From: Bacillota bacterium
GTDB taxonomy: Bacteria > Sysuimicrobiota > Sysuimicrobiia > Sysuimicrobiales > Segetimicrobiaceae
Assembly (NCBI GenBank): GCA_021324255.1
Contig: JAJPJL010000056.1
Span: 1-46,476, forward strand
Direction of reading: 5' to 3'
Length of the DNA stretch: 46,476 nucleotides
The position numbers were made by a program, and so were the translations under genes. Shown here one piece after another: positions 668-5,473 of this stretch. The notes beneath the pieces were generated by a model. That model was given only the letters and a program-made list of their open reading frames with translations, had not been told where the DNA came from and did not search any database. Position 1 is the stretch's first letter. Each line of letters begins with the position of its first letter.

Positions 668-859
668 CTACGGCGCGGGGGCGGTCGATCGGCGGCGCGG
701 CCGGCGGACCAGTTCGCCGCCGCAGTTCGGGCACACGTGCTGCATCGCCGCGGCGCAGGCGGGACAAAACGTGCACTCGTAGCTACAGATCCACGCGCCC
801 GCATCGTGCGGCAGCGGCGCCGCGCAGCGCTCGCAGCGGCCGCGCATCTCCAGCGCCAT
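668..859 (-). CDS. DUF1272 zinc-ribbon protein
   Basis: A 63-residue protein with the DUF1272 pattern: Cys pairs in RCERCAAPLP, an ICSYECTFCPACA core and a CPNCGGELVRRPRR tail. Spaced Cys pairs like these normally bind zinc. The reading frame stays open upstream into carB, but the ATG at 859 overlaps the carB stop as TGATG, which argues for translational coupling and fixes the start. It is the third gene of the carA-carB transcript. DUF1272 proteins have no established biochemical role, and a link to pyrimidine or arginine synthesis rests only on the operon. Family assignment is firm. Confidence 0.85.
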   Translation of the reverse strand: MALEMRGRCERCAAPLPHDAGAWICSYECTFCPACAAAMQHVCPNCGGELVRRPRRRSTAPAP

Positions 860-3800
860 CAGAGCGGCGACACCTCGATCTCGGCGTGCGGCGCGGGGAT
901 GTGCCCATGCTCGATCGCCACGAGCACGTCCAGAAACGCGGCGGCCGTGTCCAGCGAGGTGAAGCACGGCAGGTGACGCTCGAACGCGGCCCGCCGCATG
1001 GCGAAGCCGACGCGGCCCGGCGTGCGGCCGCGCGTCGGCGTGTTGATCACGAGGGCCACCGCCTGTTCCCGAATCAGGCGCAGCGCGGTCTGGGTCCCGC
1101 CGTACTTGCTCACGTGCACCGCGTGGATGCCGCCGCCCGCTAGAAACTGCGCCGTCTCGTCCGTCGCGTACACGGCAAACCCGAGCTCGGCGAACCGGCG
1201 GAGCAACGGCAGCGCTCTGGGTTTGTCACGGTCCGCGATGCTGGCGAGCAGCGCCCGTTCGCGGGGCATCACGACGCCGGCGGCGACGAGCGCCCGGTAC
1301 AGCGCGCCCGCCAGGGTCGCGTCCTGGCCCATGACCTCCCCGGTGGACGTCATCTCGGGGCCGAGCAGCATGTCGAGCCGGCCCAGCTTCTCGCCGCTGA
1401 ACACCGGCGCTTTCACCGAGACGCGCGCCGGCGCAGGCAGCACCGTGACCCCCGGGTAGCCGAGATCGGCGAGCGATGCGCCGAGCATCACGCGCACCGC
1501 GAGCGGAACCAGCGGCGCGCCCGCGGCCTTGCTCACGAACGGCACGGTGCGGATGCTCCGCAGGTTCGCCTCCAGGACGTACGCCGCCCCGTCCTTGACG
1601 ACGAACTGGATGTTGAGAAACCCACGGACCCCGAGCGCGCGCGCGATCGCCACGGTGTGCGCGACGATCTGGTCGGCGACGTCGGGCGGGAGATCCTGCG
1701 CTGGGAACACCGCGACGCTGTCGCCGGAGTGCACGCCCGCGCGCTCGACGTGTTGCATGATGCCCGGCAGGTACACGCCGTCGCCGTCGCTGATCGCATC
1801 CACCTCAACCTCGACCCCGTCGACGTACGTGTCGATCAGCACCGGGTGGTCGCCGTTCGCGGCGAAGGCGTCCGTGAGGTAGCGGGCCAGCTCCTCCCGG
1901 TCCGCCACGATCTCCATGCCTCGCCCGCCCAGCACGTAGGACGGCCGCACGAGGAGCGGATACCCCAGCCGGCCCGCGGCGGCCAGCCCGGCGTCCACCG
2001 ACCGCACGGCGTCCCCGGTCGGTTGCGGGATCTCGAGCCGGCGCAGGAGCGCGCCGAACTTGCCCCGGTCCTCCGAGATGTCCAGGCTCTCCACCGGGGT
2101 GCCGAGCACGCGCACGCCGGCCTGCGCCAGCGGCGCCGCGAGGTTCAACCCCGTCTGGCCGCCGACCTGGACGATCACGCCGTCCGCCCGCTCGGCCTCG
2201 ACCACGTGCAGCACATCCTCCAAGGTCAGCGGATCCACGTACAGCCGGCTCGCGACGTCGAAGTCCGTGCTGACCGTCTCCGGATTGTTGTTGATGAGCA
2301 CGGCGTCCAGCCCCTCGGCGCGCAGCGTCTTCACGGCGTGGACGCTCGAGTAATCGAACTCGATGCCCTGGCCGATCCGGATCGGCCCGGAGCCGAGCAC
2401 GACGACCCGGGCGCGCGCGCTCGACGGGATCTCGCTCTCCGATCCGTACGTCGAGTAGTAGTACGGCGTCCGCGCGGGGAACTCGCCCGCGCAGGTGTCC
2501 ACGACCTTAAAGACCGGACGGATCCCCTCCTGCGACCGGGCCTCGCGTACGGCGCGCTGGTCCACGCCCCACAGCCGCGCGATCGTGGTGTCGCTAAACC
2601 CGAGCCGTTTCGCCGCGCGCAGCGTGGCCGAGTCGCGGTGCTCGCGCAGGCGCCCTTCCATCTCGACGAGGTTCGCGATCTTTTGCACAAAGAAGAGGTC
2701 GATCCCGGAGAGACCCGAGACCTCGTGCGGCATCATCCCGCGGCGCAGGCCCTCGGCGACGGCGAAGAGGCGTTCGTCGCACGGCTCGGCGATCCGCCGC
2801 CGGACTTCGTCCCGCGGCCACCCCGCGGCCGGCGGGTAGAGCAGCCCGTCCGTCCTGATATCGAGGGACCGCACCGCCTTGAGCAACGCTTCCTCCACGC
2901 AGCGGCCGATCGCCATCACCTCGCCGGTCGCCTGCATCTGGGTGCCGAGCCGGCGGTCCGCGTGGGGAAACTTGTCGAACGGCCACCGCGGGATCTTGAC
3001 GACGCAGTAGTCGAGCGCCGGCTCGAACGCGGCGCAGGTCTGCCCGGTGACCGCGTTGGGAATCTCGTCGAGCCGCTTGCCGAGGGCGATCTTCGCGGCC
3101 ACCCGCGCAATGGGGTAGCCGGTGGCCTTGCTGGCGAGCGCGCTGCTGCGGCTTACGCGCGGGTTGACCTCGATCACGTGGTACCGGTCGCTCTCGGGGT
3201 CCAGCGCAAACTGAATGTTGCACCCGCCCTCGATGCCGAGGCCCCGGATGATGCGGAGGCTCGCGCTGCGGAGCCGTTGGTAGTCCCTGTCGGTCAGCGT
3301 CTGGCTCGGGGCGATCACGATGCTGTCGCCGGTGTGCACGCCCATGGGATCGAGGTTCTCCATGTTGCACACGGTGATGCACGTATCGGCGCCGTCGCGC
3401 ATCACCTCGTACTCGATCTCCTTCCACCCCGCGATGGACCGCTCCACCAAGACCTGGCCGATCCGGCTCACCGAGAGCCCGAGCGAGACGATCTCGTCCA
3501 GCGCGCGCGCGTCGCCCGCGATGCCCCCGCCCGTGCCGCCGAGCGTATAGGCGGGGCGGATCACGAGCGGATAGCCGAAGCGGGACGCGAAGGCGCGGGC
3601 TTCGGCCACCGACGTCGCCACGATGCTCTCCGGCACCGGCTCCCCGAACGCGATCATGGCGTCCTTGAAGCGCTGGCGGTCCTCCGCCTGGCGGATCGCG
3701 TCGAGCGGCGTGCCGAGGAGACGCACGCCGAGGCGGTCCAGCGCGCCGTTCTCCGCGAGCGCGACGGCGAGGTTGAGGCCGGTCTGGCCGCCGAGTGTGG

Positions 3801-4059
3801 CCAGGAGACCCTGGGGACGCTCCTTTTCCATGACGCGCTCGAGAAACTCCGCGGTGAGCGGCTCGATGTAGACCCGGTCCGCGGTCTCGACGTCGGTCAT
3901 GATCGTGGCAGGGTTGCTGTTGACCAGCACGACCTCCACGCCCTCTTCGGACAGCGCGCGGCACGCTTGACTGCCGGAGTAATCGAACTCGGCGGCCTGA
4001 CCGATCACGATCGGACCCGAGCCGATCACCAGGACCTTGCGGAGGGCGTCGTGCGCCAT
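859..4059 (-). CDS. carB: Carbamoyl-phosphate synthase, large (ammonia-using) subunit
   Basis: At 1066 residues this is the usual CarB length. Two homologous halves are visible: the first begins [22 protein letters not shown] (about residues 9-30) and the second [22 protein letters not shown] (about 550-570). Each carries an ATP-grasp fold, with an oligomerisation domain between them and a C-terminal MGS-like allosteric domain. The enzyme makes carbamoyl phosphate from bicarbonate, two ATP and the ammonia channelled from CarA, feeding pyrimidine and arginine synthesis in the cytoplasm. The ATG at 4059 lies one base after the carA stop (TAG-A-ATG). Its own stop overlaps the DUF1272 start. Regulation should follow the leader in front of carA. 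Confidence 0.98.
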
Positions 4060-4060
4060 T

Positions 4061-5176
4061 CTACGCGCGGCCTCCGAGCGGCGCCACGGAGCCCTCGTGC
4101 CGCGCGGTGGCGCCGATCGTCTCCAGCCACCGGTCGAACAGGTAGCTCGAATCCAGCGGGCCCGGCCGGCCTTCGGGATGATACTGCACCGAGACGATCG
4201 GGAGCCCGCGGTGCCGGAGCCCTTCCACCGTGCCGTCGTTGAGGTTCCGGTGTGTCACCACCATCTCCGAGGCGTCGAGCGACGCCTCGTCCACCGCGTA
4301 CCCGTGATTCTGCGTGGTGACACACACCCGGCCCCTCTCGAGGTCCTTGACGGGATGGTTGCCGCCGCGGTGACCGTAGGGCAGCTTGAACGTCTCCGCG
4401 CCTGCGGCTCGCGCGATGATCTGGTGCCCGAGGCAGATCCCGAACATCGGCAGGCGGTCCCACAACGCCCGCACCTGCGCGGCCTGGGCCTCGAGCCGGC
4501 GCGGGTCGCCCGGGCCCGGCGAGAGCACCACACCGGCCGGATCGAGCTCCAGCACCTGCGCGGCGGTGGTCCGATGCGGGAGCACCCACACGTCACAGCC
4601 GCGGCGGCGCAACGCGTCCACGATGCCGCGCTTGACCCCGCAATCGATGACGGCCAGCCGGGCGCCGGACCCCGGGTAGTGGATGGGGTGTGGGGTGGAC
4701 ACCTGCGCCACGAGGTCGAGGCTCTCGATCGGGGGGAGCGCGCGCGCCCGCTCGATCAGCGTGCCGTCGGACACGTCCTCCGTCGAGATGATGCCGCGCT
4801 TGAGGCCGTGCGCCCGAAGGTGACGGACGAGCTGCCGCGTGTCCACGTCGCCGATTCCGATGACCCCCCACGCCGCCAGCGTCGCGCCGAGCGTTCGCTC
4901 GGCCTGCCAGTGATGGGGCAGATCCGCGCACTCACCGACCACAAAGCCCGCGACCTGCGGCCGGATCGATTCCCACGCCGCGCCGCTCACCCCGTAGTTG
5001 CCGATCAAAGGGTAGCTCATGGTCACGATCTGGCCCCGGTACGAGGGATCCGACAGCACCTCTTCGTACCCGGTCATGACCGTGGTAAAGACGACCTCGC
5101 CTCCGGCGGAACCGTCGGCTCCGATGGCCCGCCCCCTGAGGAGCGTGCCGTCCTCGAGCGCCAACCGAGCGCGCAT
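4061..5176 (-). CDS. carA: Carbamoyl-phosphate synthase, small (glutaminase) subunit
   Basis: A 371-residue glutaminase subunit that releases ammonia from glutamine for CarB. The N-terminal CPSase_sm domain ([15 protein letters not shown]...) is followed by a class I amidotransferase domain: SPGPGDP at 219-224, nucleophile Cys248 in FGICLGHQ, and the His333/Glu335 pair in QYHPEG. The frame is open another 99 codons upstream, but those are leader RNA. The ATG at 5176 has GGGAGGG 5 bases before it and gives the canonical N terminus. It is first in the carA-carB-DUF1272 operon and sits behind a roughly 260-base leader with a regulatory hairpin and terminator. Confidence 0.98.
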
Positions 5177-5344
5177 CACGTCCCTCCCGTGCCACTTATG
5201 CATAATTATACATTCCGTGCTCATAAAAATGCAACGGGCGGGACACCGGGACTCGCCGGCGCCGCCCGGGGACCGGGGCCGGATCCGGCGCAGGCACGCG
5301 GCGGGGATCGAGGACGCACGTGCGCGGGAACGCGAGCCGGCATG

Positions 5345-5368
5345 AAAAAGGAGTCCCCGCGGGACTCC
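5345..5368 (-). terminator. Intrinsic terminator inside the carAB leader
   Basis: Reading the minus strand, GGAGTCCC-GCG-GGGACTCC forms a perfect 8-bp stem with a 3-base loop, followed at once by TTTTT. It lies downstream of the carA promoter and about 170 bases before the carA start, so it can only act on the carAB transcript. That is the arrangement of a transcription attenuator. Confidence 0.85.
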
Positions 5369-5397
5369 GCACGCATGCAGTCGACAACGACCGGCGC

Positions 5398-5429
5398 ACC
5401 ATCGACCCCTCCCGGAGATCGTTAATGGT
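5398..5429 (-). promoter_or_regulatory. PyrR-binding-loop-like hairpin in the carAB leader
   Basis: The minus strand has ACCAT paired with ATGGT, a TAA bulge on the 5' side, then CGATC paired with GGTCG, capped by UCCGGGAGG. This layout (lower stem, purine-rich 5' bulge, upper stem, GNGAGG in the loop) matches the anti-antiterminator that PyrR binds in Bacillus pyr leaders, including UUAA before the upper stem and GGGAGG in the loop. Several consensus positions differ, so the PyrR assignment is inference. The hairpin starts about 10 bases after the predicted transcript start and precedes the terminator at 5368-5345. Confidence 0.5.
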
Positions 5430-5444
5430 CCGCGACCCGGGCTT

Positions 5445-5473
5445 AGTATAGAACCACGGGCACCGCCTGGCAA
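5445..5473 (-). promoter_or_regulatory. carAB sigma-70-type promoter
   Basis: TTGCCA at 5473-5468 and TATACT at 5450-5445 on the minus strand are each one base off consensus and exactly 17 bases apart. Transcription should start near 5438, giving a leader of about 260 bases. Confidence 0.8.

Follow-up and report, generated by a model that had tools for sequence, protein, structure and literature searches.

A divergent PyrR-box-like hairpin with a built-in start codon precedes carAB in an order of Candidatus Sysuimicrobiota: a candidate translation-coupled attenuator

Mycobacterial PyrR represses translation, and its PyrR box overlaps the ribosome-binding site. In the E. coli pyrBI and pyrE attenuators, a ribosome on the leader ORF prevents the terminator from forming, and UTP-sensitive pausing of RNA polymerase serves as the sensor. 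The pyr leader of Thermus ZO5 was reportedly described by Van de Casteele and others in 1997 as a PyrR box, a leader ORF, and a terminator, and PyrR together with a translating ribosome is said to have been proposed in place of an antiterminator. To our knowledge, ribosome-dependent PyrR control was proposed from that one Thermus leader, and we know of no comparison across a lineage. PyrR attenuation in Bacillus uses an antiterminator (PMC6296669, PMC4347634). The carAB operon of E. coli is transcribed from a pyrimidine-controlled promoter P1 and then an ArgR-controlled promoter P2, the latter bearing a pair of 18-bp ARG boxes separated by 3 bp (PMC6245113).

The window, meaning the whole stretch of 46,476 nucleotides that was analyzed, contains carAB on the minus strand. 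The gene for the small subunit of carbamoyl-phosphate synthase, carA (4061–5176, ATG at 5176), was located by the carA query search, and carB for the large subunit (859–4059, 1066 aa) was recognized by the content of its translation. The original prediction had placed a TTGCCA-17-TATACT promoter, a hairpin, and an 8-bp terminator with T5 before carA, and this arrangement was confirmed on the minus strand. By sequence, promoter P1 (5445–5473, minus) consists of TTGCCA (5473–5468), a 17-bp spacer, and TATACT (5450–5445), and its transcript is expected to start about 8–10 nt 5′ of CCAUUAA. A promoter-like site ending about 14–17 nt 5′ of CCAT was present in 12/12 genomes of family f1. The intrinsic terminator (5345–5368, minus) was recognized from sequence and fold as GGAGUCCC-GCG-GGGACUCC-UUUUU. 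Its stem is a perfect 8 bp (5368–5350), the T5 lies at 5349–5345, and the carA start codon at 5176 follows about 170 bases downstream.

The PyrR-box-like hairpin (5394–5433, minus) was assigned from its fold, its conservation in 30 genomes, covariation, and a match to a model of canonical boxes. Its core at 5429–5398 reads ACCAU-UAA-CGAUC-U-CC-GGGA-GG-GGUCG-AUGGU, and GCG/CGC pairs extend the base (5433–5431 with 5396–5394). The lower stem ACCAU/AUGGU is followed by a UAA bulge (5424–5422) and the upper stem CGAUC/GGUCG, and the top is formed by a bulged U, CC/GG pairs, and the apical loop GGGA. The UUAA bulge and GGGAGG loop predicted earlier were right in substance; precisely, the bulge is UAA, the loop is GGGA, and the GG is paired. 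The folding energy was unremarkable for the 96-nt leader (z = −1.56; 14/200 shuffles equally good) and modest for the 45-nt hairpin (z = −2.15).

To assess conservation, carA was used as a query in 61 genomes, and the DNA upstream was then read. A covariance model built from the carA-leader hairpin (R1) detected the hairpin in 30/61 genomes with E values of 8.8e-13 to 2.6e-7, and in each of them it stood upstream of carA. It was present in all non-f6 genomes for which a carA gene was located. Upstream of the f6 carA genes (G023, G026, and G039), the hairpin was absent and ARG boxes were present. Beyond carA, R1 gave only two strong matches, both on pyrF (G004 and G007), and a more permissive run added weak matches only, from E 0.18 upward. 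In the consensus structure of 24 distinct carA leaders, 91% of cells were paired. Compensatory changes were seen in 31 cells compared to 14.5 in shuffles (0/500 shuffles as high), and the covariation score was 0.239 compared to at most 0.106 in slid controls. Covariation among the carA leaders of relatives thus supported the stem, above all shuffles and slid controls. Despite the modest folding energy, the hairpin is therefore more than chance, because it is conserved in 30 genomes.

Most f6 genomes (G016, G023, G026, and others) contained pyrR and lacked the hairpin, and their carA, where found, had an ARG-box promoter only.

The hairpin was then compared to canonical PyrR boxes from Bacillaceae and other phyla, which read CC-UUUAA-n-(stem)-U-CC-nGnGA-GG-(stem)-AAGG. 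The lineage hairpin, CC-AUUAA-(stem)-U-CC-GGGA-GG-(stem)-AUGG, has the same build with one loop base fewer; it contains the internal CC..UAA bulge, the bulged U, and the CC/GG pairs under a purine loop. The window loop is CCGGGAGG and lacks the five-base canonical form CCnGnGAGG. The canonical loop CCRGyGAGG was found only in L033 of f5 (CCAGCGAGG) and L027 of f7 (CCGGTGAGG). The departure from the Bacillus loop consensus that had been noticed in the window is thus real and lineage-wide, and these two loci bridge it. Mean hairpin stability was −10.3 kcal/mol compared to −9.1 kcal/mol for canonical boxes.

A second covariance model was built from canonical PyrR boxes only (R2; alignment A4 with 7 rows and 5 distinct sequences). 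R2 matched the window end to end at 5430–5397 with 12.0 bits (E 0.019 in 371 bp), aligning positions 1–35 to the hairpin with one gap, in the loop. With filters off in 79.5 kb from 21 loci, 11/13 R2 matches fell on carriers' hairpins (E 0.12 to 5.5), the matches having low significance singly (E 0.1–7 in about 80 kb), and none fell in the two f6 controls. With default filters in 128 kb, R2 found the canonical controls only. Rfam RF00515 matched all seven canonical-box control loci (E 9e-6 to 0.05) and gave no match at E ≤ 10 on the window stretch, nor any in six relatives or in L010, L103, and L115. Rfam scans of the leader at gathering and loose thresholds returned chance families only. Judged by sequence, this is a divergent element of PyrR-box-like type. 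Formally, it falls outside the family that Rfam models, and Rfam searches miss it.

A search for pyrR elsewhere in the genome, as the original prediction had suggested, found it at G000:C22:20738-21268 with 237.6 bits, above the cut-off, and pyrR was present in 30/30 hairpin carriers. A ligand other than PyrR, either a nucleotide binding directly as in a riboswitch or another RNA-binding protein, would suit the shortened loop, the failure of RF00515 on a hairpin whose canonical counterparts it all recognizes, and the f6 genomes that have pyrR and no element. However, the canonical-box model matched over its full length, the loops of L027 and L033 bridge the difference, pyrR accompanies every carrier, and the targets belong to the pyr pathway only, which makes such a ligand very unlikely. 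The leader element is very probably of the PyrR type.

The expectation that the hairpin would recur before other pyr genes held for pyrF in two genomes and failed for pyrR. Most pyrF genes lacked it, with only G004 and G007 carrying one, and the pyrR leaders that were readable in relatives had no such hairpin. In the window genome, a search with the canonical PyrR-box pattern gave only background besides the carA leader (31 matches compared to 13 for the reversed pattern).

In most of these genomes, pyrR follows a pseudouridine synthase gene. In G000:C22 and G001:C30 (L001 and L097), the pyrR match is preceded by 15 bases before the contig breaks off, in both cases with GGGAGCCTGCGCGTG; therefore, neither assembly includes the pyrR leader.

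A Shine-Dalgarno-like GGGAGG (5408–5413, minus) lies within the hairpin, in the loop and the top of the stem, 5 nt before an AUG at 5402–5400 in the lower stem. The original prediction had missed both. The same GGGAGG-AUG spacing was found at pyrF in L103 and L115. In G004 and G007, the hairpin CCATTAACGATCTCCGGGAGGGATCGATGG stands shortly downstream of a promoter-like site, and its ATG is, by sequence, the first codon of pyrF (MGTPMDARDRLAVALD... and MGNAADPRDRLIVALD...). This ATG is the sole plausible start in G007, and pyrF of G004 has another in-frame ATG a few codons downstream that could be used as well. No terminator was found at these two pyrF hairpins. Since the hairpin ATG is the pyrF start codon, the hairpin supplies both a start site and the Shine-Dalgarno sequence that goes with it. 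The pyrF site resembles mycobacterial PyrR control in that the box overlaps the ribosome-binding site; it differs in loop and target, and the mycobacterial system has no joint use with a terminator as at carA here.

At carA, the hairpin AUG opens a leader ORF of 68 codons (5196–5402, minus; MVRRSLSTACVRSPAGTPFS...) that reads through the terminator and stops in the ARG-box region. The distance from the AUG to the terminator is 34 nt in the window, and in most leaders the 5′ arm lies 23–38 nt from the AUG. The AUG was invariant in 26 aligned carA leaders, with GGGAGGG or GAGGG just upstream, yet pairing with CCAU constrains it as well, and its conservation is therefore no proof that translation starts there. 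Even in the absence of PyrR, part of the start site is hidden within the hairpin. The leaders were of three types. At six loci, the hairpin AUG frame is fused in frame to carA (L034, L037, L038, and L039 in f2; L029 and L032 in f4). At five loci (L013, L028, L031, L036, and L069), the leader ORF overlaps the carA start through ATGA, GTGA, or TGATG. In the remaining type, to which the window's leader belongs, the ORF continues past the terminator before it stops. In L034 and L037–L039, which lack a second promoter, the fused frame encloses the terminator; thus, carA expression there needs passage through the terminator.

Leader ORFs were comparable among relatives only up to the terminator, and up to the called terminator stops numbered 2/515 codons in frame 0, 13/509 in frame +1, and 2/493 in frame +2. 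Both frame-0 stops, in our reading, were in f4 leaders without a convincing terminator. Among leaders read later, the ORF of L065 stops in the terminator loop, and that of L050 stops about 9 nt before the terminator arm, an exception among the leaders with a convincing terminator. In these leaders, which are GC-rich, frame +2 was no less open than frame 0, and the open frame 0 agrees with leader translation and does not prove it. Leader peptides were not conserved past the first codons. Coding constraint on the fused f2 region was weak, with differences by codon position of 3, 7, and 13 for L037/L039 and 5, 5, and 5 for L034/L037.

Loci L024–L026 (G025, G028, and G031; f4 genus g17) kept the hairpin and leader ORF and had no convincing intrinsic terminator. 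Their stretch after the AUG is C-rich and G-poor, which would suit Rho-dependent termination.

These start sites bear on two further explanations. P1, the hairpin, and the terminator could delimit an independent small RNA, about 95 nt long, with no part in the control of carAB, as their bracketing by promoter and terminator and the presence of carA's own promoter P2 would allow. This is extremely improbable, because the element stands just upstream of carA in 30 genomes, four f2 genomes lack P2 and have the hairpin frame fused to carA, and at pyrF the hairpin is the start site itself; on the strength of the pyrF start sites and carA fusions, the small-RNA reading was set aside. Alternatively, the hairpin could be a purely translational operator beside a constitutive or minor terminator, with control exerted through coupled or fused carA translation, or by Rho acting on untranslated leaders. 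The use at pyrF without a terminator, the fused and start-overlapping leader ORFs, and the f4 genus that keeps hairpin and ORF without a convincing terminator would all agree with it. However, most other leaders have a hairpin and T-rich stretch at similar distance, carA in the window family has its own strong ribosome-binding site, and the leader ORF in that family mostly ends before carA or is out of frame with it. We consider this explanation quite unlikely.

The original prediction had also likened the region to the PyrR-controlled leaders of pyr genes. A conserved element at pyr genes, the presence of pyrR, and the box match bear this out; the Bacillus antiterminator layout is not supported. 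In the classical attenuator, PyrR-UMP stabilizes the hairpin as an anti-antiterminator, and otherwise an antiterminator excludes the terminator. The resemblance to PyrR boxes, the order of hairpin and then terminator, and the presence of pyrR would fit. Folding of the window leader revealed no antiterminator competing with the terminator (gain of 0.0 kcal/mol), against the fold that had been expected. In 22 leaders, the terminator 5′ arm was compared to shuffled arms for its pairing with the RNA upstream, and no enrichment was found (mean shuffle percentile 0.34 for folding gain and 0.36 for duplex energy), in a test of limited power in which the Bacillus-type controls reached only percentiles 0.58 and 0.70. 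Terminator 5′ arms were 45% pyrimidine compared to 74% in Bacillus-type leaders, whose pyrimidine-rich arms therefore match the purine-rich 3′ strand of the box; the arms here do not. Alternative pairings do exist, a weak one in the window (GA-U-CUCCG with CGGAGUC, −7.3 kcal/mol) and a strong one between terminator arm and hairpin in L033 (−15.8 kcal/mol). Taken together, the antiterminator model appears unlikely here.

A strong antiterminator signal in L032 was set aside because it rests on a mis-called terminator.

Compared to RF00515 and the Bacillus attenuators, the locus shares the CC..UAA bulge, upper stem, bulged U, CC/GG pairs, and purine loop with GA, as well as a following intrinsic terminator, pyrimidine pathway genes, and pyrR in the genome. 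It differs in a loop one base shorter in most members, an AUG in the lower stem, and the lack of a detectable antiterminator and of Rfam recognition, and its targets are carAB (and pyrF) instead of a pyrR-led operon. With the Thermus ZO5 leader as it is reportedly described, the locus shares a PyrR box, a leader ORF, and a terminator, with a ribosome-binding site at the box and, in leaders with a convincing terminator other than L050, the ORF reading into that terminator. It differs in that the box itself contains the ribosome-binding site and start codon, carAB is the target, and an ArgR-type promoter follows. A leader-translating ribosome would be common to this locus and E. coli pyrBI/pyrE, whereas PyrR on the start site would be the sensor here.

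The most likely reading, to which we assign a probability of about 0.6, is that the hairpin is a divergent PyrR operator that would act through control of translation, as a translation-coupled attenuator at carAB. The P1 transcript would start very close to the hairpin. At low pyrimidine levels, PyrR would be off the hairpin, and a ribosome would bind GGGAGG and start at the AUG in the lower stem. Following RNA polymerase, this ribosome would cover or melt the 5′ arm of the terminator, and transcription would continue into carAB. When UMP is high, PyrR-UMP would clamp the hairpin and hide the start site, no ribosome would follow, and the terminator would stop RNA polymerase. At pyrF in the two relatives, where no terminator follows, the same hairpin would directly block translation of the gene. 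We infer the binding of PyrR, UMP as its ligand, translation of the leader, and ribosome-dependent readthrough from this layout.

For the order as a whole, there is about an even chance that the operator of PyrR is a shortened one that contains its own ribosome-binding site and AUG and is used as an attenuator, as an in-frame carA fusion, or as a translational operator at pyrF. The principle of ribosome-dependent PyrR control is not new; what is added here is an operator that carries its own start codon and is used at both carAB and pyrF, together with the series of fusions and the spread of the element across the order. The natural series of leader ORF, start-overlapping ORF, in-frame fusion, and pyrF operator makes the ribosome proposal testable. 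It also indicates that a single RNA module can serve both as transcription attenuator and as translational operator.

A second promoter, P2, with two ARG-box-like palindromes (5199–5234, minus) is located between the terminator and carA and was likewise absent from the original prediction. P2 consists of TTGCAT, an 18-bp spacer, and TATAAT (5234–5205), overlapped by the palindromes TGCATTTTTATGAG and TGTATAATTATGCA at 5233–5199, which are 21 bp apart from centre to centre. At up to 3 mismatches, this tandem site is the only one in the genome; it is conserved in relatives, and argR is present in the genome. Two boxes at 21-bp spacing over a promoter, together with argR, are the features of an ArgR-type carAB promoter, and the palindromes are putative ArgR-binding sites. 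Located beyond the terminator and overlapped by ARG boxes, P2 would provide arginine-controlled carAB expression independent of the P1 leader. The order of the two promoters and the 21-bp spacing of ARG-box centres are the same as in E. coli carAB, where P1 differs in being controlled at initiation by several DNA-binding factors and not by an RNA element (PMC6245113). The pyrimidine/arginine promoter pair of carAB is thus like that of E. coli and built from different parts.

Several pyrR leaders of other genomes were also read. G040 has two pyrR genes in one MAG (G040:C148 and G040:C207), one of them with a canonical Bacillus-like leader, and this pair may reflect contamination (the genome is rated 5% contaminated). 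In L085 (G051), a canonical PyrR box that lacks a terminator immediately precedes the start codon of pyrR and is likely a site of translational autoregulation of pyrR. The pyrR leaders L086 (G047), L084 (G057), and L093 (G040) have an ATG within about 10 nt after a canonical PyrR box, with an AAGG-type Shine-Dalgarno sequence in the box's 3′ strand and a short ORF extending into the terminator. A layout suited to ribosome-dependent PyrR control may thus be widespread in other lineages.
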